Shown here one piece after another: positions 1 through 13,332 of a stretch of 64,000 nt of DNA (position 1 is the first letter of the stretch; the number at the start of each line of letters is the position of its first letter). The notes under the pieces are model-generated. The model was not told the origin of the DNA. It saw only the letters and a list, made by a program, of their open reading frames with translations, and made no database searches. Position numbers and translations under genes: made by a program. Source of the DNA: Sphingomonas sp. CL5.1. Its GTDB lineage: Bacteria > Pseudomonadota > Alphaproteobacteria > Sphingomonadales > Sphingomonadaceae. The stretch covers positions 2,349,001 through 2,413,000 of the forward strand of contig NZ_CP050137.1 in the NCBI RefSeq assembly GCF_013344685.1, read 5' to 3'.

Positions 1-658
1 CCTCGCGGATGCGGTGGCAGCGCACCGCGAACGCGCCCGGATCGCGCGCGCGCAGCGTGGCGGCGGCCGGATCGACCTGCGCGCAGCCGCGCGCCAGGAT
101 CAGCCCGGCCAGCGCGTCGCGCGTCCCGCTGGTCGCCGGCGGGCCATAGACGCGGATCGGTGTGGCGGGCAGCGCGGGGTTCACGTCGTGCCACGTCCGC
201 GCGGCGTTCGGGCGGCCGCCCGGCGTCGCGGCGAGCGCGCGGTAGAGATCGGCCGGGGTCAGCGCCATCCGCGCGCCGCGCTTCGCTTCGGCGAGGACCA
301 CGCCGTCGATGCCGATCTGGATTTCCAGCAGCCGCCCCGCGCCGTTACGCGCGCAGGCGTCATATTCCACCCGCCGCATGCGGCGCGAGGCGTCCTCGAT
401 ATCGGGATGCGCCGCGCCGATCCCCGCGCAGAACAGCCTCATCCCCGCGCCCGTGCCGGTGGACTCGATCACCGGCGGCCTGGCGCCCGGCGTATTGACG
501 AGGAACTGTTCCGCCACGATGGCGGTGAAGGGATAGACGGTGGAGGAGCCGACCGCCCGGATCTGCTCGCGTGTGCCTGCGCCGCCGCCCGCCGCCTGAT
601 CGTGGCAGGCGGCGAGCGACAGCGATATGGCGACGAGCAGCGCGGCGCGGCGAATCAT
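1..658 (-). CDS. pstS: PstS-like phosphate-binding lipoprotein (partial)
   Basis: Periplasmic phosphate-binding component of the Pst ABC importer; only about the first 219 residues lie in the window. The N terminus is a lipoprotein signal with lipobox LAAC (Cys18), so the mature protein should be membrane-anchored. The segment GSSTVYPF just after it is the phosphate-binding P-loop-like motif of PstS proteins, and SGTRDALAGL further on is a second conserved binding segment. The gene follows phoR on the same strand after a 62-base gap that holds tandem PHO-box-like repeats. pstC, pstA, pstB, phoU and phoB probably follow off the left edge, as in related genomes, but cannot be seen here. The family assignment is firm; the phosphate specificity rests on motifs and context. 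Confidence 0.9.
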   Translation of the reverse strand, partial: MIRRAALLVAISLSLAACHDQAAGGGAGTREQIRAVGSSTVYPFTAIVAEQFLVNTPGARPPVIESTGTGAGMRLFCAGIGAAHPDIEDASRRMRRVEYDACARNGAGRLLEIQIGIDGVVLAEAKRGARMALTPADLYRALAATPGGRPNAARTWHDVNPALPATPIRVYGPPATSGTRDALAGLILARGCAQVDPAAATLRARDPGAFAVRCHRIRE

Positions 659-704
659 CAAAACCCCATACGCCTTCGATAGGCGGCGTTCGTTTCCGGT
701 ACGC

Positions 705-737
705 CTGTGTGACACTGAGGTTACGCTAATATGACAG
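705..737 (-). promoter_or_regulatory. Candidate PHO box upstream of pstS
   Basis: On the minus strand three 7-mers repeat at an exact 11-base spacing: CTGTCAT (737-731), GCGTAAC (726-720) and GTGTCAC (715-709). PhoB binds direct repeats of CTGTCA-like 7-mers spaced 11 bases apart. The first unit is a perfect match, the third is close and the middle one is degenerate. The site covers the last codons and stop of phoR and lies about 50 bases before the pstS start, so pstS can have its own phosphate-starvation promoter. Binding is inferred, not shown. Confidence 0.6.
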
Positions 738-1980
738 CGGCATCGGCCGCGCGCAGCATCACCGTGACGCGCGTGCCCTCGCCGACCGTGCTGGCGATAT
801 CGAGCCTGCCGCGATGACGCTCCACGATATGCTTGACGATCGCGAGGCCAAGGCCAGTGCCGCCGAGCGAACGGCTGCGCCCGGCATCGACGCGATAGAA
901 GCGTTCGGTGAGCCGAGGCAGATGCTCGGGCGGGATGCCCTCGCCCTGATCGGCGACGACGAGGCGGACCATGTTCCCCGCCGCCGGCGCCGCCTCGACG
1001 CGGATCGGCGTGCCGGGGCGGCCGTATTTCATCGCATTGCCGATCAGGTTGTGCAGGAGCTGGGAGAGCTGGACGGCATCCCCCGTCACCACCGGCAGGC
1101 CGGGTGTGACGTGGAGCGAGATATCGTGCCCGCGCCCGTCATGCGCGCCAGCCAGCGCTGTTGCCGTCTCGCGGATCAGCCGCGCAAGATCGATCGAATC
1201 GGGCGGCTGGCGGAACTTGTCCGCCTCGATCCGCGACAGGCTCATCAGGTCGCCGACCAGCCGATCCATCCGCTGCGCCTCGTCGAACACGATGCGCAGG
1301 AAGCGAGTGCGGATTTCCGCGTCGTCGCCCGCCTCGTCGGCCAGCGTCTCGACATAGCCGAGGATCGAGGCGAGCGGGGTGCGCAGCTCATGGCTGGCAT
1401 TGGCGACGAAATCGACGCGCATCTTCTCGGCGGCATGGGCGTCGGTGCGGTCGAGCAGGTGGATCAGCCGGCGGTTGCCACCGATCGCGTTGGCGCGCAT
1501 CTCCCATCGCTGGTTCAGCCCGCCCAGCCCGACCAGCTCGATCGGCGGCGGCTCGCCGTCGCGCGGCTGCGAAAGATGCGTGGCGGCGGCCGGATGCCGG
1601 ATCGCGGTGCGCACGTCCTCTCCCGCGACATGCTCGCCGAACAGCGTCCGCGCCGCGCGGTTGGCGAGCGCGACGCGCGTGCCCTCGAGCAGCAGCACCG
1701 GCTCGAGGATGGCGTCGATCGCCACCTCGATCGCGGGGCCGGGGACGGCGGCGTCGCGGGCGAGGGCGGCGGCCTCCGCCTCCCGCTCCTCGCGCATCTG
1801 CGAGGCGGCGAGCAGCGCGACCAACCCGCCGGCGAGCGCGACCAGCGGCACCTGCCAGTCGCCCGCCAGCGCCCAGGTGACGGCTGCCGTCACGGCGACG
1901 ATGCCGGCCGCGAGCCAGCCGCGAGGGGTGATTCCGTCCAGCACGGCGCGCGCTTTAGCCGATCGCCGGCGCGCGCGCAT
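721..1980 (-). CDS. phoR: Phosphate regulon sensor histidine kinase PhoR
   Basis: Membrane sensor kinase of the PhoR-PhoB system, 419 residues. Order of parts: two hydrophobic segments (about 21-40 and 44-60), a PAS-like region (about 80-180), a HisKA domain with ASHELRTPL (phosphoacceptor His197), and an HATPase_c domain with the N-box around Asn311-Asn315, DQGEG (344-348) and GGTGLGLA (373-380). The reading frame is open upstream to 2094, but that would overlap the divergent gene at 2065; the ATG at 1980 gives a normal PhoR N terminus. The pstS gene follows, which supports PhoR over other kinases of this class. The partner response regulator is not in the window. Confidence 0.9.
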   Translation of the reverse strand: MRARRRSAKARAVLDGITPRGWLAAGIVAVTAAVTWALAGDWQVPLVALAGGLVALLAASQMREEREAEAAALARDAAVPGPAIEVAIDAILEPVLLLEGTRVALANRAARTLFGEHVAGEDVRTAIRHPAAATHLSQPRDGEPPPIELVGLGGLNQRWEMRANAIGGNRRLIHLLDRTDAHAAEKMRVDFVANASHELRTPLASILGYVETLADEAGDDAEIRTRFLRIVFDEAQRMDRLVGDLMSLSRIEADKFRQPPDSIDLARLIRETATALAGAHDGRGHDISLHVTPGLPVVTGDAVQLSQLLHNLIGNAMKYGRPGTPIRVEAAPAAGNMVRLVVADQGEGIPPEHLPRLTERFYRVDAGRSRSLGGTGLGLAIVKHIVERHRGRLDIASTVGEGTRVTVMLRAADAAVILA

Positions 1981-2064
1981 CCGGGCGTAAACCGAAAGGT
2001 AAACGTCCCGGCGTGATACGTCCCGGCGGCCCTGCTTGTCTCGCGGGGCCGATTGTGGGACTGC

Positions 2065-2484
2065 ATGGACGAGATGAGCGACGAAACCGATCATGACGGC
2101 GAACCGCGCGACGCGGGTGCGACGCGCAGGCGCGCGCTGATGCTCGGCGCCGTGGGGGCGGCGGCGGTCGTGTCGATCCGCCCGGCGCTGGCGCAGACCG
2201 CCGGATCGGTGCTCACCTGCGAGATACCGGTGCCCGATCCGGGCCGCGCGGGCGGCTATATCGACGCCAACGGCAAGGTCGTTCCGGCGGGAACGAAGAA
2301 CGCCTTCGCGCCGCCGCTCCGCCCATTGAAGGGCGAGGACGTGCGCCGCGCGATGGCGACCGGGGGCAATCTGCCCGGCACGGATTACGAGCGCAGCCGC
2401 GCCTATCTCAAATATGTCGGGCGGTTGCAGCGCGGGACGACTGGCTTCACCTGCTTCGCCTCGCTCCAGATGCTGCGGAAGTAA
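2065..2484 (+). CDS. Tat-exported small protein of the HPr-rel-A cassette
   Basis: A 139-residue protein I do not recognise as a named family. Residues 20-26 (TRRRALM) followed by a hydrophobic stretch (about 24-37) and ALA-Q (cleavage near 43/44) form a twin-arginine signal peptide. The mature part is about 96 residues, with only two cysteines (Cys52 and Cys130), a Pro- and Gly-rich first half, and the C terminus FASLQMLRK. ATGs at 2065 and 2074 are both possible; the first is used. Seven bases separate it from the PqqD-like gene, so it is very likely co-expressed with the kinase cassette. It could be the cassette's substrate or just a co-expressed exported protein. A Tat route suggests it folds in the cytoplasm first, where cytoplasmic enzymes could act on it. 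Confidence 0.75.
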   Translation: MDEMSDETDHDGEPRDAGATRRRALMLGAVGAAAVVSIRPALAQTAGSVLTCEIPVPDPGRAGGYIDANGKVVPAGTKNAFAPPLRPLKGEDVRRAMATGGNLPGTDYERSRAYLKYVGRLQRGTTGFTCFASLQMLRK

Positions 2485-2491
2485 ACGCGCG

Positions 2492-2755
2492 ATGGCCGCG
2501 ACGCGCTATCGCGCGCCGGCCCAGGGCGGGCTGCGCATCGCGCCGCTCGACGATCTCGTCGCCATCTATCACCGCGCGTCGGGCATCACCCATCTGGTCG
2601 TCGCCCCGGTGCCCGAGCTGCTGGAGGCGATGGCGGGCGAATGGCGCACGCTGGAGGCGCTGGCCGGTGCCTTCGGCCTCGCGCCGGACGAGCGCGGCGC
2701 GCTGACCGAGCGGCTCGGCGAGCTGGTCGCGGCCGGACTGGTCGAGGTGGGGTGA
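2492..2755 (+). CDS. PqqD-like protein, HPr-rel-A system
   Basis: An 87-residue protein of the PqqD fold, the type used as a RiPP recognition element that binds leader peptides and presents them to modifying enzymes. The line LDDLVAIYHRASG (19-31), the HLVV strand (34-37) and the helix beginning PELLEAM match the usual PqqD order of strand, strand, helix; the C-terminal half is a small winged-helix-like part ending in LVAAGLVEVG. The ATG at 2492 is chosen because the homologous region starts there. Its TGA overlaps the GTG start of the kinase by four bases (GTGA), so the two are translationally coupled. Protein-family curators call this subgroup the PqqD family of the HPr-rel-A system. Its partner peptide is unknown. 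Confidence 0.85.
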   Translation: MAATRYRAPAQGGLRIAPLDDLVAIYHRASGITHLVVAPVPELLEAMAGEWRTLEALAGAFGLAPDERGALTERLGELVAAGLVEVG

Positions 2756-3603
2756 GGCACGTTTTCTCCGTCCGCATCGGGCCGACCTCGTTCCGCGTCG
2801 GATCGGACTGGCGCGCGCCGGTCGAGCAGCTCCGCGCGCTCTACGCCGGTTATCCCACTCCAGAAGGGGGGATAACCGATTACACCGTGCGGCTGTCCGC
2901 GACGCGGCCGTGGCGGCGCTTCGTCCGCCCGTCGGTGGCGATCGCGGGGGACTATATGCTGCCGGACGCGGCGCCGCTGCCGCTCGCGCACGGCCTGCTC
3001 GCCGCCGAGATGGCGATGAACCTGCAACTCGCGCTGGGTGAGCGGCGCTTCCTGCTGCTCCACGCCGCGACCGTGGAGCGCGAGGGGCGGGCGATCGTGC
3101 TGACCGGCGAATCCGGCGCGGGGAAATCGACGCTCGCGGCGCTGCTCTCCGCGCGCGGCTGGCGATTGATGGGGGACGAGTTCGCGCTGCTCGATCCCGA
3201 TACCGGGCTGCTCCACGCCTTTCCCCGGCTGGTGAGCCTCAAGAACGCGGCGATCGACGTGGTGCGCGCGGCGCTGCCCGATGCGCGCTTCGGGCCATTG
3301 CTGGCGGGGACGCCGAAGGGTGATATCCGCCATCTCGTGCCGGGCGAGGCGGCGCTGGCGACGATGGACCGTCCGGCGCGGCCCGTGCGGCTGATCTTCC
3401 CGCGCTACGGCTTCGCGGCCGACGCCCGACCTGTCGGCGCGGGCGAGGCGTTCGTCCGGCTGACGCAGGCATCGACCAATTATGTCGCGCTCGGCGAGCA
3501 GGGATTCGACGCGCTGACCCGCTTCGTGCGCGACGTGCCCGCGATTGCACTGGATTATCCCCACGCGGAAAGCGCGATCGCGGCGATCGAGACGGAAGCA
3601 TGA
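2752..3603 (+). CDS. HprK-related kinase A
   Basis: A 283-residue P-loop kinase distantly related to HPr kinase/phosphorylase. The Walker A motif is GESGAGKST (119-127). It is preceded by HAATVE (104-109), where HprK has its conserved His-containing strand, and followed by GDEFALLD (141-148), the acidic segment matching the catalytic region of HprK. The first 100 residues are a separate N-terminal domain. The GTG start overlaps the previous stop by four bases; the end overlaps the next start by four bases (ATGA at 3600). True HprK acts on Ser46 of HPr in carbon regulation; nothing here shows that. HprK-like kinases of similar design phosphorylate lasso peptides, so a peptide or protein substrate is a reasonable guess. 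The catalytic class is well supported; the substrate is unknown. Confidence 0.88.
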   Translation: MRHVFSVRIGPTSFRVGSDWRAPVEQLRALYAGYPTPEGGITDYTVRLSATRPWRRFVRPSVAIAGDYMLPDAAPLPLAHGLLAAEMAMNLQLALGERRFLLLHAATVEREGRAIVLTGESGAGKSTLAALLSARGWRLMGDEFALLDPDTGLLHAFPRLVSLKNAAIDVVRAALPDARFGPLLAGTPKGDIRHLVPGEAALATMDRPARPVRLIFPRYGFAADARPVGAGEAFVRLTQASTNYVALGEQGFDALTRFVRDVPAIALDYPHAESAIAAIETEA

Positions 3604-4634
3604 GGAGCGGCGCGGTGCATCTGCTCTGCCGCCTGCTCGCCGTTCCCGAGACGGCGCTGAGGGTCGATGCCGGACGATGGAGCGAGGTGATAACGGTCGC
3701 GCGCGCCGAGTTGCTGATCGGCTCGCTCGCATTCCGCCTGCGCGGCCTGCCGCTGCCGGCGCGGGTGGAGGCGATCCTCGCGGCGGCGATCCGCTCGGCG
3801 GAGGAAGGACGGCGGCAGGCCTTGTGGGAGGCGGAAATGGCGCGCCGCGCGCTCGCGCCGCTCGGCTGTAAGGTGGTCCTACTCAAGGGCACCGCCTTCG
3901 TCGCGGCGGGGCTGGACGCGGGGCGGGGGCGGCATATCGGCGATCTCGACATCCTCGTGCCGCGCGCCGTGCTCGACGCGTCGGAGGCGGCGCTGCTCGC
4001 GGCCGGATGGGAATGGGTGAAGCCCGATCCCTATGACGACAGCTACTATCGGCGCTGGATGCACGAGCTGCCGCCGCTGATCCATCGCGAGCGCGACCGG
4101 ATGATCGACGTCCACCACACGATCCTGCCGCCGACCGCCCGGCTCACGCCCGACGCCGCGCAACTGCTCGCCGCCGCCGAGCCGCTCGAAGGCGGTCTGT
4201 CTATCCTGTCGCCGGAGGACATGGTGGTCCATGCCGCGATTCACCTGTTCGCGGACGGCGATCTGTCGGGCGGCCTGCGCAACCTGTGGGATATCGACCG
4301 GCTGGTGCGCGAGTTCACCGCGCGCGACCCGGATTGGCAGGTCAGGCTGGCGAGGCGCGCCGCCACGCATCAGGCGGAGCGGGTCGTGTCGCGGGCGCTG
4401 CGGGCGGCGCACCTGCTGTTCGATACGCCGGTTGCGGAGGGCCGCGCCGAGCGCGTGTTCGACACCATCGCGCGCCGTCGCCTGCTCGCGCGCGACGGTT
4501 GGGGGCGCGGCATCCGGCCGGCGACGCGACTTGCCTTCTACGTCCGCTCGCACTGGCTCCGCATGCCGCCGGCCATGCTGGCGCGGCATCTGTGGATCAA
4601 GGCCAAGTCGCGTGGTCGCCGCGAAAGTGCCTGA
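3600..4634 (+). CDS. Nucleotidyltransferase family protein (NTP_transf_5)
   Basis: A 344-residue member of the uncharacterised nucleotidyltransferase family NTP_transf_5. Visible motifs are VLLKGTAF (93-100), GRHIGDLDILV (110-120), which supplies the two metal-binding Asp residues of the polymerase-beta-like fold, and IDVHHTIL (169-176), probably the third acidic position. The rest is helical. It overlaps the kinase by four bases and ends the cassette. Members of this family occur next to HprK-like kinases and PqqD-like proteins both in HPr-rel-A loci and in some peptide-modification clusters. Transfer of a nucleotide or nucleotide-sugar to the same substrate is an inference from fold and position. 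Its last 38 bases overlap the convergent VanZ-like gene. Confidence 0.85.
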   Translation: MRSGAVHLLCRLLAVPETALRVDAGRWSEVITVARAELLIGSLAFRLRGLPLPARVEAILAAAIRSAEEGRRQALWEAEMARRALAPLGCKVVLLKGTAFVAAGLDAGRGRHIGDLDILVPRAVLDASEAALLAAGWEWVKPDPYDDSYYRRWMHELPPLIHRERDRMIDVHHTILPPTARLTPDAAQLLAAAEPLEGGLSILSPEDMVVHAAIHLFADGDLSGGLRNLWDIDRLVREFTARDPDWQVRLARRAATHQAERVVSRALRAAHLLFDTPVAEGRAERVFDTIARRRLLARDGWGRGIRPATRLAFYVRSHWLRMPPAMLARHLWIKAKSRGRRESA

Positions 4635-4965
4635 ACAGCGCGACCAACGCGATCACCGCGAGGATCGCGCCGGTGTCGGCGAGCCAGTCCATGATGTCGC
4701 AATCGCGATGCAGCGCGGGGATCGATTGCGCTACTTCGATCAGTGCGCCGAGGAAGGATAGCCGTTCGGCGATCCGCCACAGCGGCGCCTTCGGATAGGC
4801 GAGCGTCGCCAGCACCGTCAGCGTGGCGAAGGCGGCCATATGCTGCCACTTGTCCCCGACGTTGACGAGTTGCGGCGGATGCGGCAGCAGCGCCATCGTG
4901 ATCGCGAAGGTCGCCGCGATGGCGAGCAGCAGCCGCCAGAAGGTCAGGCGTTCCTGATGGGTCAT
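4597..4965 (-). CDS. VanZ-like membrane protein
   Basis: A 122-residue protein with three or four hydrophobic segments (about 10-27, 43-57, 68-80, 97-111) and the VanZ-like signature GDKWQHMAAF (37-46). It also has an Asp-rich stretch between the last two segments (HRDCDIMDWLAD, 86-97) typical of this family. The biochemical role of VanZ-like proteins is not settled. The gene follows gph with a four-base overlap (4962-4965), so the two are co-translated, and it converges on the nucleotidyltransferase gene with a 38-base overlap. The call is by motif; no function is proposed. Confidence 0.85.
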   Translation of the reverse strand: MTHQERLTFWRLLLAIAATFAITMALLPHPPQLVNVGDKWQHMAAFATLTVLATLAYPKAPLWRIAERLSFLGALIEVAQSIPALHRDCDIMDWLADTGAILAVIALVALFRHFRGDHATWP

Positions 4966-5612
4966 AGTCTCTCGAGCACGGGAATCAGGTCGTCGAAATG
5001 CGCGATCACGGCGTCGGCGCCGAGCGTTTCGACGGGTTGGTTGAGGAAGCCGAACGCGCAGGCGATCGCCGGTATCCCCGCCGCGTGCGCCGCGCCGACG
5101 TCATAGACCGAATCGCCGACGAACGCGGCGCGGCCGCCGCCGCAACGCGCGATCATCGCCTCGATCGGCGCGGGCGAGGGCTTGCCCGCGCCGCCGACGA
5201 TCGTCGCGAAGCGGCCGGTGATGCCGACCGCGTCGAGCAGCAGCCGCGCGAGGCGCTCCGCCTTGTTCGTCACCAGCGCGATCGTCACGTCCAGCCCCGC
5301 CAGCGCGTCCAGCATCGGCAGCGCGCCCGGAAAAGGCATGGTATGGATCGCGATGTTGGCCGCATAGAAATCGATCATCACCGGATAGAGCCGGTCGAGC
5401 ATCGATTCGTCACCTCCGCCGGTCGCCGCCAGCGCGAGCGACAGCATATGCCGCCCGCCGCCGCCGATCATCGGCCGCACGCGATCGACCGGCAGCGGCG
5501 CGCGCCCTTCAGTCGCCAGCGCGTGATTCACCGCCGCGGCAAGGTCCGCGCTCGTATCGAGCAGCGTGCCGTCGAGATCGAACCCGACGATCGTGAACGG
5601 AAAAACATTCAT
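4962..5612 (-). CDS. gph: HAD-family phosphoglycolate phosphatase
   Basis: A 216-residue HAD hydrolase of the Gph type, which dephosphorylates 2-phosphoglycolate arising from DNA 3'-phosphoglycolate repair. All four HAD motifs are present: DLDGTLLDT (12-20, nucleophile Asp12 and acid/base Asp14), LVTNK (113-117), GKPSP (143-147, Lys144) and VGDSVYD (165-171). A helical cap occupies about residues 20-90. Length fits the family. Related HAD phosphatases with other substrates cannot be excluded by sequence alone. It is divergent from glmU, with about 60 bases between the start codons, and overlaps the VanZ-like gene at its end. Confidence 0.85.
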   Translation of the reverse strand: MNVFPFTIVGFDLDGTLLDTSADLAAAVNHALATEGRAPLPVDRVRPMIGGGGRHMLSLALAATGGGDESMLDRLYPVMIDFYAANIAIHTMPFPGALPMLDALAGLDVTIALVTNKAERLARLLLDAVGITGRFATIVGGAGKPSPAPIEAMIARCGGGRAAFVGDSVYDVGAAHAAGIPAIACAFGFLNQPVETLGADAVIAHFDDLIPVLERL

Positions 5613-5674
5613 CGGTCATGCGCCAGACAGCAGGGCTATGGAAATGGCAAGCCTCCAATGCGAAAGCACTCCGC

Positions 5675-7033
5675 ATGAACGACAGACCGATTGCCGCCAT
5701 CATCCTCGCCGCCGGCAATGGCACGCGGATGAAATCCGATCTGCATAAGGTGCTTCATCCGCTCGCCGGGCGGCCGATGCTGCTGCACCTGCTGTCGAGC
5801 GTCGCCGCGCTGGAGCCGGCGCGCACCGTTGTGGTGGTCGGTGCGCGGCGCGAGCAGGTGGAGGCGGCGGTCGCGCCGGTCGGCGCGGAGGTGGTGCATC
5901 AGGCGGAGCAACTCGGCACCGGCCATGCCGTGCATCAGGCGGAGTACGCACTCGCCGGATTCGCGGGGGACGTGCTGATCCTCTATGGCGACGTGCCGCT
6001 CGTGTCCGCCGATACGATGCGGCGGATGCTGGAGCGGCTCCACGCCCCGGATGCGCCGGCGATGGTGGTGCTCGGCTTCCGTCCGGTCGATCCCGCCGCT
6101 TACGGCCGGGTGATCGCGGACGGCGACGGGCATATCGTGAAGATGGTCGAGTATAAGGACGCATCGCCTGAGGAATGCGCCGTAAATCTCTGTAACTCTG
6201 GCCTGATGGCGGTACGGAGCGAGGATCTGTTCGGCCTGCTGGCGCGCGTCGGCAATGACAATGCCGCGGGCGAATTCTATCTGCCCGATATCGTGATGCT
6301 CGCCGCCGCCGATGGCCGCCCCTCGGCGGTGATCGAGACAGGCGAGGCGGAAGTCGCCGGCGTCAACAGCCGCGCTGAACTGGCCATGGTGGAGCGCGCG
6401 TGGCAGGCGCGCCGCCGCGCGCAGGCGATGGCCGATGGCGCCACGCTGATCGCGCCGGAGACGGTGTGGTTCTCGCACGACACCTCGCTCGGCCGCGACG
6501 TGACGATCGAGCCGAACGTGGTGTTCGGCCCCGGCGTCACCGTGGCGGACGGCGCGACGATCCACGCCTTCAGCCATCTGGAAGGGGCGAGCGTCGGCGC
6601 AAGCTGCTCGGTCGGCCCTTATGCGCGCTTGCGGCCCGGCGCGGTGATGCAGGCGAAATCGCGCGTCGGCAATTTCGTCGAGATGAAGAAGGCGGTACTT
6701 GGCGAGGGCGCCAAGGCAAACCATCTGACCTATCTCGGCGATGCCGAGGTGGGTGCCGGCGCGAACATTGGCGCCGGAACGATTACATGCAATTATGATG
6801 GTTTCTTCAAATATCAGACGAAGATTGGTGCGGGGGCCTTCATCGGCTCCAACTCCGCCTTGGTCGCGCCGGTGACGATCGGCGACGGGGCGATCGTCGG
6901 CGCGGGCGCGGTGGTGACGCGCGACGTGAGCGCCGATGCATTGGCGCTCGTCCGGCCGGCGCAGGAGGAGAAAGCCGGCTGGGCCGCCCGTTTCCGCGAG
7001 ATGATGACGGCGCGCAAGAAAGCCGCCAGATAA
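5675..7033 (+). CDS. glmU: Bifunctional UDP-N-acetylglucosamine pyrophosphorylase / glucosamine-1-phosphate N-acetyltransferase
   Basis: GlmU acetylates glucosamine-1-phosphate and then couples it to UTP, giving UDP-GlcNAc for peptidoglycan and lipopolysaccharide. The N-terminal uridylyltransferase begins with LAAGNGTRMKSDLHKVLHP (11-29), the nucleotide-binding loop of the family. The C-terminal half is a left-handed beta-helix of hexapeptide repeats with NHLTYLGDAEVGAGANIGAG, the acetyltransferase active-site region. From the ATG at 5675 the length is 452 residues, the normal size; an in-frame start at 5618 would add a non-homologous tail. glmS follows 46 bases downstream, so the two steps from fructose-6-phosphate to UDP-GlcNAc are co-expressed, with only GlmM elsewhere. 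Confidence 0.96.
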   Translation: MNDRPIAAIILAAGNGTRMKSDLHKVLHPLAGRPMLLHLLSSVAALEPARTVVVVGARREQVEAAVAPVGAEVVHQAEQLGTGHAVHQAEYALAGFAGDVLILYGDVPLVSADTMRRMLERLHAPDAPAMVVLGFRPVDPAAYGRVIADGDGHIVKMVEYKDASPEECAVNLCNSGLMAVRSEDLFGLLARVGNDNAAGEFYLPDIVMLAAADGRPSAVIETGEAEVAGVNSRAELAMVERAWQARRRAQAMADGATLIAPETVWFSHDTSLGRDVTIEPNVVFGPGVTVADGATIHAFSHLEGASVGASCSVGPYARLRPGAVMQAKSRVGNFVEMKKAVLGEGAKANHLTYLGDAEVGAGANIGAGTITCNYDGFFKYQTKIGAGAFIGSNSALVAPVTIGDGAIVGAGAVVTRDVSADALALVRPAQEEKAGWAARFREMMTARKKAAR

Positions 7034-7079
7034 GCACCTGAACCGAACCTTTCCCGAACTTTTCGAAAGACAGAGCAGT

Positions 7080-8903
7080 ATGTGCGGCATCGTAGGCATT
7101 CTTGGCACCGCGGACGTGGCGGACCGGCTGCTCGAAGGGCTGAAGCGGCTGGAATATCGCGGCTATGACTCGGCCGGCATCGCCACCGTCCATGACGGCG
7201 TGATCGACCGCCGCCGCGCCTCGGGCAAGCTGGTCAATCTCGCGCGCGAGCTGGCCGCCAATCCGCTGCCCGGCGACGTCGGCATCGCGCATACCCGCTG
7301 GGCGACGCACGGCGGCCCGACCACCAACAACGCCCATCCGCACGCGACCGAGCATGTCGCGGTGGTCCACAATGGAATCATCGAGAATTTCAAACCCCTG
7401 CGCGAGGAACTTATCGCGCGGGGGCGGGTGTTCACCAGCGAGACCGATACCGAGGTGGTCGCGCATCTGGTGAGCGAGCAGGTCGAGGCGGGCCTTGCCC
7501 CGGCGGCGGCGGTCAGCGCGGTGCTGCCGCGTCTCCACGGCGCGTTCGCGCTGGCGATCCTGTTCCGCGACCACCCCGAGCTGCTGATCGGCGCGCGGCT
7601 CGGCTCGCCGCTGGTGGTGGGGCATGGCGACGGCGAGACCTATCTCGGCTCCGACGCGCTCGCGCTCGCGCCGCTCACCCAGCGCATCGCCTATCTGGAG
7701 GAGGGCGACTGGGTGGTCTGCACCCGCGAGGGCGCGCAGGTGTTCGATCGCGACGACAATCCGGTCGAGCGGCCGATCACCATCTCCGGCGTCACCGGCG
7801 CGCTGATCGACAAGGGCAACCACCGCCACTTCATGCAGAAGGAGATCTACGAGCAGCCGATCGTCGTCGCCCAGACGCTGCGCGCCTATCTCCAGCGCAT
7901 GGAGGATCGCGTCACGCTGCCGATCCCCGACTATGACCTGTCGTCGATCAAGCGCGTCATGATCGTCGCCTGCGGCACCAGCTTCTATGCCGGGATGGTC
8001 GCGAAATACTGGTTCGAGCAGTTCGCGCGCGTGCCGGTCGACCTCGATGTCGCCTCCGAGTTCCGGTATCGCGCGCCGGTGATGGAGCCGGGCGGGCTGA
8101 TGATCGTCATCAGCCAGTCGGGCGAGACGGCGGACACGCTCGCCGCGCTGCGCCACGCCCGCAGCGAGGGGCAGACGATCGCGGCGGTGGTCAATGTGCC
8201 GACCAGCTCGATGGCGCGCGAGGCGGACCTGCTGCTCCCGACGCACGCCGGGCCGGAGATCGGCGTCGCCTCGACCAAGGCGTTCACCTGTCAGCTCGCG
8301 GTGCTGGCCGCGCTCGCCGCCAATCTCGCGCGGGCGAAGGGCAGGCTGTCGCCGGCCGACGAGAAGGCGATCGTCAAGCATCTGTCGGAAGCACCGGCCG
8401 CGCTCAACGCCGCGCTCGCCTATGACGAGGCGATCGAGGCGATGGCGGGGGCGGTCGCCGGCGCGCGCGACGTGCTCTATCTCGGGCGCGGGACGGATTA
8501 TCCGCTGGCGCTGGAAGGTGCGCTGAAACTGAAGGAAATCAGCTATATCCACGCGGAAGGTTACGCGGCGGGCGAGATGAAGCACGGCCCGATCGCGTTG
8601 ATCGACGAGAATGTGCCGGTGATCGTCATCGCGCCGAGCGGCCCGTTGTTCGACAAGACCGTCAGCAACATGCAGGAGGTGCAGGCGCGCGGCGGCAAGG
8701 TGGTGCTCATCAGCGACTATGACGGCGTGGAGGCGGCGGGCGAAGGCTGCCTCGCGACGATCACCATGCCCAAGGTCCACCCGCTGATCGCGCCCCTGGT
8801 CTATGCGGTGCCGGTGCAACTGCTCGCCTATCACGTCGCGGTGGCGAAGGGCACGGACGTCGATCAGCCGCGCAACCTCGCGAAATCGGTGACGGTGGAG
8901 TGA
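7080..8903 (+). CDS. glmS: Glutamine--fructose-6-phosphate aminotransferase (isomerizing)
   Basis: GlmS converts fructose-6-phosphate and glutamine to glucosamine-6-phosphate, the entry to amino-sugar synthesis. The protein starts MCGIVGIL, with Cys2 as the glutaminase nucleophile after Met removal. GIAHTRWATHG (residues about 68-78) and HNGIIENF are conserved glutaminase segments. Two SIS isomerase domains follow, with CGTSFYAG and SQSGETADT in the first. The C terminus PRNLAKSVTVE is the usual closing motif. Length (607) is standard. A purine-rich stretch (AAAGACAGAG) lies just before the ATG. I saw no glmS-ribozyme-like element in the short gap after glmU. Confidence 0.97.
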   Translation: MCGIVGILGTADVADRLLEGLKRLEYRGYDSAGIATVHDGVIDRRRASGKLVNLARELAANPLPGDVGIAHTRWATHGGPTTNNAHPHATEHVAVVHNGIIENFKPLREELIARGRVFTSETDTEVVAHLVSEQVEAGLAPAAAVSAVLPRLHGAFALAILFRDHPELLIGARLGSPLVVGHGDGETYLGSDALALAPLTQRIAYLEEGDWVVCTREGAQVFDRDDNPVERPITISGVTGALIDKGNHRHFMQKEIYEQPIVVAQTLRAYLQRMEDRVTLPIPDYDLSSIKRVMIVACGTSFYAGMVAKYWFEQFARVPVDLDVASEFRYRAPVMEPGGLMIVISQSGETADTLAALRHARSEGQTIAAVVNVPTSSMAREADLLLPTHAGPEIGVASTKAFTCQLAVLAALAANLARAKGRLSPADEKAIVKHLSEAPAALNAALAYDEAIEAMAGAVAGARDVLYLGRGTDYPLALEGALKLKEISYIHAEGYAAGEMKHGPIALIDENVPVIVIAPSGPLFDKTVSNMQEVQARGGKVVLISDYDGVEAAGEGCLATITMPKVHPLIAPLVYAVPVQLLAYHVAVAKGTDVDQPRNLAKSVTVE

Positions 8904-8981
8904 TCGCGCGGCCGGGGAGGTGACCGCCTTTCCGGCGCAACCCCCTTGCCCCGCGCTCCGGGCGTTGCCATCGGCTTGGCG

Positions 8982-10469
8982 ATGACTGCCAGGATCGACA
9001 TGGGATTCGACGGAGCGGGAGCCTCCGTCGAGCTAGACCTCGAGGAGCTGCTGGCGACGCGCCTGCTCGTCCAGGGCAATTCCGGCTCGGGCAAGTCGCA
9101 CCTGCTGCGCCGCCTGCTCGAAGGCAGCGCGGGGCTGGTCCAGCAGGTCATCATCGATCCCGAGGGCGATTTCGTCTCGCTCGCCGATGCGTTCAGCCAT
9201 ATCGCGGTGGACGCGGCGCACTACAGCTTCGCGGAAATCGAGCGGCTCGCCGCCCGCGCGCGCGAGCATCGCGCCTCGGTGGTGCTCAATCTGGAGGGGC
9301 TGGAGGTCGACGACCAGCTCCGCTGCGCCGCCGCCTTCCTCGCCACCTTGTTCGAGGCGCCGAGGGAGCAATGGTTTCCCATATTGGTCGTGGTCGACGA
9401 GGCGCAGCTCTTCGCGCCGGCCGCCGCCGGGGAAGTGGGCGAGGAAGCGCGCCGCGCCTCGCTGGCGGCGATGACCAACCTGATGTGCCGTGGCCGCAAG
9501 CGCGGGCTGGCCGGGGTGATCGCCACCCAGCGCCTCGCCAAGCTCGCCAAGAATGTCGCGGCGGAAGCGTCCAATTTCCTGATGGGGCGCACCTTCCTTG
9601 ACATCGACATGGCCCGCGCCGCCGATCTGCTCGGCATGGAGCGGCGGCAGGCGGACCAGATCCGCGATCTCGCGCGCGGCGAGTTTCTCGCGCTCGGCCC
9701 GGCGATCACGCGGCGCCCGATCAAGGTGCGGATCGGCAGCGTGACGACGGCGGCGCGCAACGTCGGCCCCAGGCTGACGCCACTGCCGGAAGCCGACGCG
9801 GACGGCCTGCGCGAGCGGCTGTTCACCGCCGACGAGACGGATGCGCCGCCGCCGATCCCCGTGCCGTCGCCGCCGAGCTTCTCCGAGCTGATGCAAAGCG
9901 CGGCCACGCCGCCGCCGGCGGCCGTGCCCGACATGCCCGTGCTCGACGAGGCCGAGCAGGCGGCGGTGCGCGGCGCCGTGCTGGCGGAAATGGCGGGGGA
10001 GGATGCGCGCGTGCCGCTGCCGCAATCCTATCAGGATTATCAGGTGCGCTGCCGGATGCGCGGCGTCACGGCGGACGAGCCGCTGGATCATTTCCGCCGC
10101 CAATATGGGATGGCCCGCGCCGGCCTGAACCCGGAGCAGGACTGGGATGACGTGCTGGCGCTGGCGGAGGCGCTGCCGGAGGAGATGTTCGCGCCCTTCC
10201 TCGGGCTGGCGCGCGCGGCGCGGTTTGGAGAGGAATGCCCCGACAACGGGACGCTCGCCGCGCTCTACCAGACCGCCTCGCCGAGCCGGGCGCGGCGGAT
10301 GCTCGACTTCATCGAGGAGAAGGGGCTGATCGTGGTGCGCGTCGATATGCTCGGCAAACGCTCCGTCAGCCTGCCGCATCTGGGCTGGACGACGGAGCCG
10401 GCGATGCCCGAGCCGTCCCGCGCGCGCACGCCGCCGCGCCGCACGGCCGGCGCACGGCGGCGGGCCTGA
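8982..10469 (+). CDS. HerA-like P-loop ATPase (DUF87)
   Basis: A 495-residue ATPase of the HerA/FtsK superfamily. Walker A is GNSGSGKS (32-39); a Walker B strand ends in VVVDEAQLF; an arginine-rich segment CRGRKRGL and the ATQRLAKL motif are typical of DUF87/HerA-like ATPases. The N-terminal region resembles a HAS-barrel remnant. The C-terminal third carries a Pro- and Ala-rich linker (about 290-330) and a separate helical part, then a basic tail (RTPPRRTAGARRRA). No NurA nuclease or other partner sits next to it, so it is an orphan in this window. HerA-type enzymes move DNA or act in phage defence; which applies here is unknown. The ATG at 8982 is preferred to an upstream TTG at 8946; ATG 9000 is also possible. 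Confidence 0.82.
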   Translation: MTARIDMGFDGAGASVELDLEELLATRLLVQGNSGSGKSHLLRRLLEGSAGLVQQVIIDPEGDFVSLADAFSHIAVDAAHYSFAEIERLAARAREHRASVVLNLEGLEVDDQLRCAAAFLATLFEAPREQWFPILVVVDEAQLFAPAAAGEVGEEARRASLAAMTNLMCRGRKRGLAGVIATQRLAKLAKNVAAEASNFLMGRTFLDIDMARAADLLGMERRQADQIRDLARGEFLALGPAITRRPIKVRIGSVTTAARNVGPRLTPLPEADADGLRERLFTADETDAPPPIPVPSPPSFSELMQSAATPPPAAVPDMPVLDEAEQAAVRGAVLAEMAGEDARVPLPQSYQDYQVRCRMRGVTADEPLDHFRRQYGMARAGLNPEQDWDDVLALAEALPEEMFAPFLGLARAARFGEECPDNGTLAALYQTASPSRARRMLDFIEEKGLIVVRVDMLGKRSVSLPHLGWTTEPAMPEPSRARTPPRRTAGARRRA

Positions 10470-10545
10470 ACGCACGCTCCCCGATTGCGGCGGGCTGGAG
10501 AAAACTCCATAGCTGCCTCATCATAATTCGAACGGGGAGACGAAC

Positions 10546-11946
10546 ATGAAGTCACTGGTGATGACGACGGGCGCGCTGCTGCTGGCGCAGACCGCGATGG
10601 CGCAGACCCCGACGCTCAGGCCCGATCAGCAGGCGTTCCGTGCGATCTATCAGGAGTTGGTTGAAACCGACACGAGCATCACCAGCGGAAGCTGCACCGA
10701 TCTCGCGGCGAAGATCGGCGCGCGCTTCAAGGCGGCGGGCTTCAGCGACAGCCAGATCACCTATTTCTCCGTGCCCGAGCATCCCAGGGACGGCGGCGTC
10801 GTCATCGTTTATCCGGGCACGTCGCAGGCGGTGAAGCCGATGCTGCTGCTCGGCCATATCGACGTGGTGACGGCCAAGCGCGAGGACTGGACGCGCGATC
10901 CGTACAAGATGATCGAGGAGAACGGCTTCTTCTATGGTCGCGGCACCGCCGACATGAAGGCGATGGACGCGATCTGGATCGACACGCTGCTGCGCTTCAA
11001 GGCGAGCAACTACAATTCGAAGCGCACGGTGAAGCTGGCGCTGACCTGCGGCGAGGAGACGACCGGCGCGTTCGACGGCGCGGAATGGCTCGCCAAGAAC
11101 AAGCCGGACCTTATCGCCGCCGAGTTCGCGCTGAACGAGGGCGGCGGCGGCCGTGCCGGGCCGGACGGCAAGCCGATCGTCATGTCGCTCCACGTCGGCG
11201 AGAAGATCGTCCAGAACTACCGGATCGAGGCGACCAATCCGGGCGGACACAGCTCGATCCCGATCCGCGACAATGCGATCTACGAACTGGCCGACGCGCT
11301 GGTGAAGATCCGCGACTACGAGTTCCGCACGCAGGTGAACGACACCACCCGCGCCTATTTCGCCAAGTCCGGCGCGGCGCGAAAGGACGAGATCGGCGCG
11401 GCGATGCTCGCGGTTTCGAAGAACCCGGCGGACACGGCGGCGGTGGCGATCCTCAACAAGGATCGTTCCTATCACTCGATGCTGCGCACCACCTGCGTCG
11501 CGACCCTGCTCGACGGCGGCCATGCCAACAACGCGCTGCCGCAGCGCGCGGGCGCCAACATCAACTGCCGCATCTTCCCCGGCAATGACGTGGAAGCGAT
11601 CCGCGCCGAGCTGGAGAAGGTGATCGGCGATCCCAGGATGAAGGTGACGCTGACGCCGCCGATCCGCCCGGCCGCCGTGCCGCCGACGCTCGATCCCAGG
11701 ATCGTCGGCCCGGCCGAGAAGCTGGTCGCCAAATATTATCCCGGCGTGCCGCTGGTGCCGACCATGTCGACCGGGGGCACCGACGGCATCTATCTGGAGA
11801 CGATCGGCATCCCGTCCTATGGCCCGCCGGGTCTCTACAACGATCCCGAGAGCGGGGCGCATGGCCTGAACGAGCGGATGCGGGTCGACGCGGTCTATAA
11901 GGGGCGCGACTTCCTGTTCGACCTCGTCAAGGATTATGCCGGCTGA
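10546..11946 (+). CDS. M20-family metallopeptidase, exported
   Basis: A 466-residue M20/M25/M40 peptidase with a Sec signal peptide (1-19, ending AMA-Q), so it should act in the periplasm. Metal-binding and catalytic motifs are GHIDVV (103-108, His104 and Asp106), GRGTADMK (131-138, Asp136), CGEET (168-172, with the catalytic Glu) and ALNEGG (195-200). HGLNER near the C terminus supplies the last His ligand region. The dimerisation domain lies between about 210 and 340. The class usually removes N-terminal residues or splits dipeptides; the exact substrate is not evident. A good ribosome site (GGGGAGACG) precedes the ATG. Confidence 0.9.
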   Translation: MKSLVMTTGALLLAQTAMAQTPTLRPDQQAFRAIYQELVETDTSITSGSCTDLAAKIGARFKAAGFSDSQITYFSVPEHPRDGGVVIVYPGTSQAVKPMLLLGHIDVVTAKREDWTRDPYKMIEENGFFYGRGTADMKAMDAIWIDTLLRFKASNYNSKRTVKLALTCGEETTGAFDGAEWLAKNKPDLIAAEFALNEGGGGRAGPDGKPIVMSLHVGEKIVQNYRIEATNPGGHSSIPIRDNAIYELADALVKIRDYEFRTQVNDTTRAYFAKSGAARKDEIGAAMLAVSKNPADTAAVAILNKDRSYHSMLRTTCVATLLDGGHANNALPQRAGANINCRIFPGNDVEAIRAELEKVIGDPRMKVTLTPPIRPAAVPPTLDPRIVGPAEKLVAKYYPGVPLVPTMSTGGTDGIYLETIGIPSYGPPGLYNDPESGAHGLNERMRVDAVYKGRDFLFDLVKDYAG

Positions 11947-11959
11947 TGTGAACGCATCG

Positions 11960-11983
11960 CCCCGCCGGAAACGACCGGCGGGG
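11960..11983 (+). terminator. Hairpin after the M20 peptidase gene
   Basis: A perfect 9-bp stem CCCCGCCGG / CCGGCGGGG with a six-base loop starts 14 bases after the stop codon. A third copy of the left arm follows at about 11994-12002. There is no T-run, so this may be a weak terminator or a pause/stability hairpin rather than a classical terminator. Confidence 0.45.
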
Positions 11984-12009
11984 AGTGGCGTCGCCCCGCC
12001 GGTCGTGGG

Positions 12010-13332
12010 ATGGCGCGGGCGATGACACCGCTGACTCGCCGCGATATCTTCGCCCAGGCCTGGCCGATCATCCTCGGTCAGGTGCTGGTGCCGCTGGTCG
12101 GGGTGGTCGATACCACGGTGATCGGGCGCACCGGGAACGCCGCGACGCTGGCGGGGGTCGCGCTGGGCGTGACCACCGTCAACCTGATCTTCTGGACCTT
12201 CGGCTTCCTGCGCATGGGCGTGACCGGCCTCACCGCGCAGACGCTCGGCGCCGGCGGCGGGGAGGAATTGCGCGCCTTGCTGCTGCGGGCGTTGCTGCTC
12301 GGGCTGGGGCTGGGCATCGCGCTGCTGGCGCTGTCGCCGGCGATCGTGCCGCTCGCGCTTTCGCTGATGCAGGTGCCCGCGTCGGCGGCGGAGGCCGCGC
12401 ACGGCTTCACCACCGCGCGCTTCGCCGGGGCGCCCGCCGCACTTGGCTTCTACGTCCTCAACGGGTGGCTGCTCGGGCTGGGCCGGACGCGGCTGGCGCT
12501 GGCGTGTCAGGTGGCGTTCAACGGCGTCAACATCGCGCTAGACGTGCTGCTGGTCGCCGGCTTCGGCCTTGGCGCATGGGGCGCGGGAATCGGGACGTCG
12601 ATCGCCGAATGGGTCGCGCTGGCGAGCGGCCTATGGGCGGCGCGGCATGTGCTGGGGCCGGGCTGGTGGCGGATCGGGCGGCGCGCGACATTCGCGCCGG
12701 GCGCGTTCCGACGGCTGCTTTCGGTCAACGCCGACATCATGATCCGCACGGTGGCGCTGCTGTTGCTGTTCACCTGGTTCGCGCGCGCCGGGGCGCGGCT
12801 GGGCGCGGTGCCGCTCGCCGCCAATCATGTGCTGATGCAGTTCGTCAGCGTCAGCGCCTTCGTCCTCGACGGTTTCGCCTTCACGGCGGAGGCGCGCGTC
12901 GGGGCGGCGACCGGCGCGGGATCGCGCGCGGCGTTGCTGCGGGCGGCGCGGCTGACGGGGGAGTTCTCGCTGGCCGGAGGACTGGTCTTCGCCGGCGTCA
13001 TTGCCGCGACTGGACCGTGGCTGATCGCGCTCGTCACGCACGATCCGGCGGTGCAGCGACAGGCGCTGGCGATGCTGCCCTATTGCGCGCTGGTGCCGCT
13101 GTTGGGGATGCCGAGCTGGCTGCTCGACGGCATCTTCATCGGCGCGACGCGTGGGCGCATCTTGCGCAACGCGGCGCTCGTTTCGGTGGCGCTCTATCTA
13201 GTGACCGACACGATGCTGCGCGGGTGGGGCGATATCGGCGTGTGGATCGCGCTGCTGGCGAGCTACCTCTATCGCGCGGCCGCGCTGGGCGTGGCGCTGC
13301 CCCGGCTGGTCAGGAGCGTGGAAGCGGCGTAG
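12010..13332 (+). CDS. MATE-family efflux transporter (DinF-like)
   Basis: A 440-residue inner-membrane protein with about 12 hydrophobic segments, in two similar halves, as in the MATE multidrug/oligosaccharide/polysaccharide flippase superfamily. The first segment (QAWPIILGQVLVPLVGVVDT) and the following GRTGNAATLAGVALG match the start of DinF-subfamily proteins. MATE pumps export organic cations and other toxic compounds using Na+ or H+. Substrate unknown. Starts at 12010 and 12022 are equally plausible. It ends one base before the convergent amidohydrolase stop. Confidence 0.9.
   Translation: MARAMTPLTRRDIFAQAWPIILGQVLVPLVGVVDTTVIGRTGNAATLAGVALGVTTVNLIFWTFGFLRMGVTGLTAQTLGAGGGEELRALLLRALLLGLGLGIALLALSPAIVPLALSLMQVPASAAEAAHGFTTARFAGAPAALGFYVLNGWLLGLGRTRLALACQVAFNGVNIALDVLLVAGFGLGAWGAGIGTSIAEWVALASGLWAARHVLGPGWWRIGRRATFAPGAFRRLLSVNADIMIRTVALLLLFTWFARAGARLGAVPLAANHVLMQFVSVSAFVLDGFAFTAEARVGAATGAGSRAALLRAARLTGEFSLAGGLVFAGVIAATGPWLIALVTHDPAVQRQALAMLPYCALVPLLGMPSWLLDGIFIGATRGRILRNAALVSVALYLVTDTMLRGWGDIGVWIALLASYLYRAAALGVALPRLVRSVEAA

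Follow-up and report, generated by a model that had tools for sequence, protein, structure and literature searches.

The closest described relatives of the locus reported here are the gene clusters for linear polyphosphorylated peptides (LPPs) of Bacillota, an experimentally studied system in which a recognition element (RRE) of ribosomally synthesized and post-translationally modified peptides (RiPPs) is combined with an HprK-like kinase and a nucleoside triphosphate (NTP) transferase without a lasso cyclase (PMC13381572). In this system the kinase LppK phosphorylates Ser3 of the core, just past the leader (PMC13381572). Among lasso peptides, the kinases PadeK, ThcoK, and SyanK act on a C-terminal Ser, and PsmN is credited with adding a hexose to phospho-Ser (PMC9266682). 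Here we describe a four-gene cassette in a 64,000-nt stretch of Sphingomonas sp. CL5.1 (NZ_CP050137.1, positions 2,349,001 to 2,413,000, forward strand; "the window"). It encodes a small protein with a twin-arginine translocation (Tat)-type signal, a PqqD-like RRE, an HprK-related kinase, and a nucleotidyltransferase (NTase). Taken together, the data suggest that the cassette is probably a RiPP-like system whose product, as a rule one per genome, is a modified protein destined for export, with the Tat signal doubling as the leader.

An earlier note on this DNA had stated that no function was described for the set. No publication was found on HPr-rel-A, HprK-related kinase A, TIGR04352, TIGR04353, PF14907, or HprK-related, and no paper linking Tat with HprK or an RRE; the statement stands to that extent, but the trio is named in NCBIfam (HPr-rel-A) and its logic is known from the LPPs (PMC13381572). 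A named enzyme set for which we found no published function thus gains a concrete substrate candidate. The features of the locus are as follows.

2065..2484, + strand: small Tat-signal protein, proposed substrate, 139 aa, or somewhat shorter if translation begins at the ATG of 2074
2125..2193, + strand: leader / Tat-type signal, residues R21-A43, RRRALMLGAVGAAAVVSIRPALA; a seed of leader profile A7
2206..2208, + strand: Ser48, candidate acceptor 1, five residues past A-x-A; invariant Ser
2452..2463, + strand: C-terminal C-F-A-S (C130-S133), with Ser133 as candidate acceptor 2; C130 and S133 invariant
2492..2755, + strand: PqqD-like RRE domain (TIGR04353), 87 aa; curated model and PDB profile matches
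2752..3603, + strand: HprK-related kinase A (TIGR04352), 283 aa, GTG start; curated model and PDB profile matches
3061..3063, + strand: kinase His104; aligned with the His of HPr kinase 1ko7
3106..3132, + strand: kinase Walker A motif GESGAGKST (K125); motif present
3600..4634, + strand: NTase (PF14907), 344 aa, with invariant D115/D117 (in GDLDILV) and D170; curated model and predicted structure

The four genes lie in a row and the last three overlap by four bases each, GTGA (2752-2755) between PqqD and kinase and ATGA (3600-3603) between kinase and NTase, as the earlier note had described; GESGAGKST in the kinase and GDLDILV in the NTase (3939-3959) are likewise both present. Overlaps are confined to these three genes, the Tat open reading frame (ORF) stopping 7 nt 5' of PqqD. 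The Met of 120 listed homologues aligns with the alternative Tat-protein start at 2074. The four-gene set was also found in beta- and gammaproteobacteria, and this recurrence makes it more than a chance arrangement.

Co-occurrence of the small Tat-type protein with the kinase

The earlier note had left it to a neighbourhood survey whether the small Tat protein travels with the kinase or is absent beside most of its homologues, and the protein was found to travel with it. The sample comprised 149 genomes of the window's family, with a kinase over the TIGR04352 cut-off in 45 and not in 104. Leader profile A7, made from 31 leaders only and 35 positions long, gave exactly one match at E<=1.3e-6 (at least 30.5 bits) in 44 of the 45 kinase genomes and in 0 of the 104 others (Fisher's exact test, p 3.4e-37, uncorrected for relatedness); the next-best match in the sample scored 21 bits. 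In the kinase genome missed by the profile (G049), the protein was found by a full-length match, its upstream part reading differently (locus L103), and with all evidence combined 45 of 45 kinase genomes carry it. G011 is counted within the 45 owing to one of its two kinases; its second kinase and those of G332 and G234 are under the family cut-off, and these are included in the 119 loci below but not in the 45 genomes.

A full-length search with the Tat protein found 41 genomes at E<1e-4, all within the 45. Five weak matches (5e-4 to 1e-3) followed, one in a kinase genome (G040) and four, with E from 5e-4 to 1e-3, in the kinase-less G004, G016, G098, and G104; there the leader profile gave nothing at E<=0.01 in G016, nothing among the matches listed in G098 and G104, and one match of 18 bits elsewhere in G004. 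In the window's own genome the cassette leader scored 49.1 bits and the next match 16.6. In each of eight other genomes (seven seeds and the non-seed G441, 22.2 bits), the cassette was the sole strong leader match. In 14 more genomes outside the profile its protein was the top match in 13 (E<4e-4 in 11), which brings the count for non-profile genomes to 14 of 15. A second, nearly full-length leader match lying off the cassette (G451:C212:1115-1201, 17.7 bits) could be another precursor or a chance match.

The association extends beyond the family. A scan of named genomes with kinase alignment A1 was followed up in the best 80 of 212 loci (42 from sphingomonads, 38 from beta/gammaproteobacteria or unplaced Pseudomonadota), and a precursor lay near the kinase in 38/42 and 36/38 of these, respectively. 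The sphingomonad loci lacking one were L149, at a contig end, and L141, L142, and L148, whose genomes keep it in trans; the other two misses (L160, L166) are likewise at contig ends, with less than 0.7 kb available upstream of each. Precursors were picked with a leader profile from 21 beta/gamma seeds, run on 14,588 ORFs of 121 loci, and every match of at least 8.5 bits was a small ORF near a cassette or an unlinked Tat gene, with the exception of a 10.0-bit fragment in L137. Among the 36 non-sphingomonad precursors, those of L168 (weak, 1.3 bits), L182 (7.7 bits, cut by a contig end, and so left out of the sequence sets but counted), and L153 (10.4 bits) scored lowest, all others reaching at least 17. 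First-pass picking, which accepted weak scores beside a kinase if the match started at an RR pair, had missed 29 loci, and its false picks (L075, L096, L127) were dropped; a second, sphingomonad profile recovered 20 loci missed or wrongly picked at first. In a draw of 289 genomes from the class, the kinase exceeded its cut-off in eight, two of the window's genus, and the remaining six, alphaproteobacterial kinases from outside the window's family, all have a leader-bearing protein nearby (L090-L095). Gene order and leader are mostly common to alpha-, beta-, and gammaproteobacterial loci, and the precursor lies downstream in three (L091, L161, L174).

The partner enzymes are nearly as constant. 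By profile search, which replaced a first pattern that found 34 loci only, PqqD is present in 113 of 119 kinase loci (missing in L149, L183, L085, and L096-L098). The NTase was found in 111 of 119 by a single-sequence search, and five of the eight misses carry it by clustering. In L097 (6617-8889 and 5892-6581), a kinase below the cut-off bears, by eye, a PqqD-like stretch fused at its own N-terminus; its neighbours are an NTase and, on the opposite strand, a pair of small proteins of the type RRRFLAxCGxFAxAT, and the arrangement resembles another branch of this logic.

Six genomes in which the genes are split nevertheless retain the Tat protein. In G042 and G122 the Tat gene is distant from PqqD, kinase, and NTase, which stay together. 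Loci L141, L142, and L148 are without a Tat gene, which their genomes carry on a different contig. One contig of G040 holds kinase and NTase with neither PqqD nor precursor, and on another contig the precursor adjoins a PqqD gene (leader 23.9 bits, PqqD 59.2 bits). That unlinked copies are retained speaks for a function, and the pair in G040 speaks for PqqD handling the precursor. A further case, G085, is a gene cut by a contig end, with the body beside the kinase (34.6 bits) and the leader at the extreme end of another contig.

The leader, the variable body, and the three enzymes

The window's Tat protein matched no curated family above cut-off. It has 1308 relatives at E<=1e-3 among 7995 candidates scored. 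In 120 homologues listed, none has a Pfam domain, and the names given are "hypothetical" or "uncharacterized" with two exceptions, a marine-set record named by position and a cluster also named gluconate 2-dehydrogenase subunit. The leader follows, with deviations, the pattern RR-x-h-h-x(3)-A-x-x-A-[P/S/A]-x-h-h-[TS]-[LIV]-x(2-4)-A-x-A; RR occurs in 120/120 listed homologues, and R22 and A43 are invariant in alignment A4. As read from their sequences, these leaders have the features of Tat substrates, namely twin Arg, a hydrophobic stretch, and A-x-A.

The bodies fall into at least two families, labelled here by regular expressions devised in this analysis. Class I (A4, n=35) has invariant R22, L25, P40, A43, S48, C52, A113, G127, C130, and S133; Ser48 is kept in 35/35 rows of A4 and in all 121 aligned homologue rows, as are C52, C130, and S133, and a disulfide between C52 and C130 is possible. 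A C-terminal C-[FYLW]-x-S is found in 68/71 alphaproteobacterial precursors and in some gammaproteobacteria. In class II (A5, n=18) the invariant residues are R24, R25, S55, S59, G73, and N170, and many rows show the pattern SGxLSGNLS ... SPGYWKxH. When profiles of the two classes were compared, the alignment was confined to the leader (29 columns, E 1.9e-6, probability 90%). In a set of 106 precursors of 75-276 aa, with starts chosen by rule, the pattern placed the leader end in 97, and 94 of these have a Ser within 10 residues past it, whereas the rate in background windows is 56%. In a kinase tree with 58 rows, body class requires two changes over the 45 rows labelled I or II, the other 13 being labelled other or both, and near relatives favour such clustering; with that proviso, body class appears to track the kinase phylogeny. 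The window's mature domain (residues 51-139) models confidently, with 10-residue means of 84-97 from residue 51, and its fold found no match among PDB structures (best E 4.0). Two loci stood out: downstream of its NTase, L161 (5689-7107) carries a tandem pair of differing class II-like precursors, where most loci showed one, and in L088 (7882-8259) a good leader precedes a C-terminus without C-x-x-S, possibly a frameshift in an assembly listed as 7% contaminated.

The enzymes are recognized by curated models: the kinase by TIGR04352 (241.3 bits, cut-off 200), the PqqD-like protein by TIGR04353 (37.3 bits, cut-off 35; also matched at E<=0.01 by 21/21 aligned relatives), and the NTase by PF14907 (173.3 bits, cut-off 31.2). 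Against the PDB, the PqqD profile matched best the lasso leader-binding B1 proteins TfuB1 and TbiB1 (6jx3 and 5v1u; E 6e-5 and 2e-4), which supports the earlier note's link to leader binders. For the kinase profile, HPr kinases were among the best matches (1ko7 first, 1jb1, 2qmh); its His104, which we take to be catalytic, its P-loop, and D142-E143 align with the His, P-loop, and Asp-Asp of 1ko7. The NTase had no credible match in a sequence search of the PDB, and its predicted structure (predicted local distance difference test score 93.9) is nearest, by Foldseek, to MenT1, ANT(2'')-Ia, polyadenylate synthases, and CCA-adding enzymes. The best of these, MenT1 (8an4), had E 3e-3, probability 1.00, and template modelling scores of 0.60 (target) and 0.36 (query), with none at E<=0.001. 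Residues K96, D115, D117, D170, H172, and H173 are kept across 31 aligned rows, and the enzyme models as a polymerase-beta-type NTase with a DxD...D active site.

Proposed function and alternatives

An RRE and a precursor with conserved leader and variable core are encoded together here, as is usual for a RiPP system, and the small Tat-type protein is very probably the dedicated substrate. We propose that the PqqD-like RRE would bind the N-terminal Tat signal as its leader, through the x-h-h-[TS]-[LIV] core, and present the protein. The HprK-like kinase would then phosphorylate a conserved Ser, most likely Ser48 past the predicted signal-peptidase site and alternatively Ser133; by analogy with LppK and with the lasso kinases acting on C-terminal Ser, phosphorylation of the Tat protein is likely. 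By analogy with PsmN, the PF14907 NTase might elaborate the phosphate by nucleotidyl or hexose-type transfer, a step we put at slightly less than an even chance. Finally, the folded, modified protein would cross the membrane via Tat, a route we regard with good confidence, and signal peptidase would cleave the leader at A-x-A. A dedicated exporter and leader peptidase would then be unneeded; none was recognized beside the window cassette, other loci having had no systematic search for them. The earlier note's idea of a modifying system that makes no lasso thus gains a co-travelling Tat protein, a lasso-RRE-like PqqD, and a kinase with the His, P-loop, and acidic pair of HPr kinase. As the note had said, no lasso cyclase is found at the cassette: none occurs among the scanned neighbours (window genes 2-13332), and the nearest genomic PF00733 match is ~171 kb away. 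The note also gave a transglutaminase-like peptidase as absent, a negative for which no dedicated search was made. An Asn_synthase-type protein (G000:C1:2583634-2584599, a 597-aa frame), possibly a lasso cyclase, was noticed ~230 kb from the cassette.

Several observations weigh against this proposal. Curated Tat models recognize few leaders at E<=0.1 (TIGR01409 and PF10518 each 2/35 class I and 1/18 class II members; PF10399, the Rieske Tat signal, 7/35 class I), so that Tat routing depends mainly on reading the motif. The candidate acceptor varies with class (S48/S133 in I, S55/S59 in II). The LPP motif YxxPxVLxHQxIxFETxxS is absent from the leader alignment, where a P-x-h-h core alone, in part of the set, recalls it, and the proline of the LPP RRE-binding core occurs in 5/35 class I rows only. 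The NTase step is the weakest because, in the system in which LppN was itself tested, no effect of it could be detected (PMC13381572). As to co-occurrence, several leaders seeded A7 and the strength of matches in seed genomes is therefore partly by construction; the absence of strong matches from the 104 kinase-less genomes is not a product of seeding. Weak leader matches (18-21 bits) occur in 11 of these 104, and remote true precursors score within the chance-match range (G155, 20.2 bits; G454, 16.1 bits) or are missed, as in G449, which has no leader match although its locus L172 bears a precursor.

A broader claim would be that these loci encode a new class of modified proteins, guided by an RRE and routed through Tat, in which the twin-arginine signal serves as RiPP leader, the kinase adds (poly)phosphate to a Ser beside the cleavage site, and the NTase attaches a nucleotide or sugar cap to it, with at least two body families sharing the leader only across alpha-, beta-, and gammaproteobacteria. 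The use of Tat would then reflect its capacity to transport a protein that has been folded and modified beforehand. We hold the case for such a class to be evenly balanced.

Two alternatives appear equally unlikely. The PqqD-like protein might be a proofreading chaperone of the Tat route, retaining the small protein until folding is complete, with a different partner or the chaperone itself as the target of kinase and NTase. This would suit the linkage of precursor and PqqD away from kinase and NTase in G040, and the part common to the substrates is indeed a Tat-type signal; yet the nearest solved PqqD relatives are domains that present leaders within a modification system, and the precursor tracks the kinase in 45/45 genomes, its body class appearing to follow the kinase phylogeny. 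Alternatively, the cassette might make a true RiPP natural product, the modified body being trimmed to a short peptide that is secreted, for instance to antagonize other bacteria. Elsewhere, RRE-kinase-NTase sets are parts of RiPP clusters (PMC13381572), and leader and body are conserved and variable as expected for one, but the sphingomonad bodies have invariant residues along their length, that of the window models as a single confident domain, and the failure to recognize a dedicated exporter or leader peptidase, within the scope given above, also speaks against it.

A link to phosphate signalling was considered in view of the neighbouring genes. A phoR-like gene (300.9 bits, cut-off 334.2) flanks the window cassette, with a PstS-like gene behind it; on the other side lie VanZ-like, phosphoglycolate-phosphatase-like, glmU, and glmS genes and, beyond glmS, a MATE transporter (12010-13332). 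The VanZ-like ORF (4597-4965, - strand) overlaps the NTase 3' end by 38 bp and is under curated cut-offs. Among 12 kinase-less genomes, phoR and glmU matches are ~0.7 kb apart in G003, with no room for a cassette, and unlinked in the other 11. The suggestion that the cassette is a phosphate-signalling module of the Pho regulon draws on the divergent phoR-like gene in 18 mapped kinase loci of sphingomonads and on the distant Tat genes of G042 and G122, which are still divergent to it, but is very improbable and was rejected, since upstream regions show no Pho-box enrichment (mean best score 8.56 vs 8.44 shuffled) and none of the 38 beta/gamma loci, each covered over up to 12.8 kb, holds a PhoR, GlmU, or GlmS relative at E<=1e-10.

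Comparison with known systems

HPr kinase/phosphorylase resembles the window kinase in its P-loop region and aligned catalytic residues; with TIGR00679, however, that kinase scored 22.3 bits, far under the cut-off of 240. The HPr-rel-A system of NCBIfam (TIGR04352/TIGR04353) takes in kinase and PqqD over curated cut-offs, whereas the Tat proteins matched no curated family beyond generic Tat signals. Lasso systems of the paeninodin/pseudomycoidin type share the HprK-like kinase and nucleotidyltransferase (PMC9266682) and a PqqD-like B1 protein (PMC13381572), and differ in their macrolactam cyclase, none having been found beside this cassette, and in their substrate, which here is a Tat-type protein.

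In bufferins and other RiPPs of multinuclear non-heme iron-dependent oxidative enzymes (MNIOs), an export signal peptide replaces the ordinary leader and modification precedes export (PMC12452194, PMC12636315), as is proposed for the present cassette. Those systems combine Sec or lipoprotein signals with iron oxygenases, and the present one a Tat-type signal with a kinase and an NTase; the term "twin-arginine" appears nowhere in the texts of the two papers. If our proposal is right, the Tat signal as recognition leader would be a case we did not find in literature searches.

The LPPs differ in their hosts, Bacillota rather than the Pseudomonadota of this cassette with its Tat-type signal as proposed leader, and in having a SipW-like leader peptidase and an MsbA-like transporter (PMC13381572), neither of which was recognized among window genes 2-13332, other loci having been seen as gene maps only. 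Four Oxalobacteraceae loci (L154, L159, L163, L165) have upstream what we read as a polysaccharide-export-like gene, which recalls the capsule loci around LPP clusters. The likeness to LPPs lies in the discrete RRE, HprK-like kinase, and NTP transferase without a lasso cyclase, and in precursors, 35-200 aa long, whose N-terminal part is conserved and whose C-terminal part varies (PMC13381572). Were the proposal to hold, the logic of phosphate-modified RiPPs would extend from peptides of Bacillota to exported proteins of Pseudomonadota.

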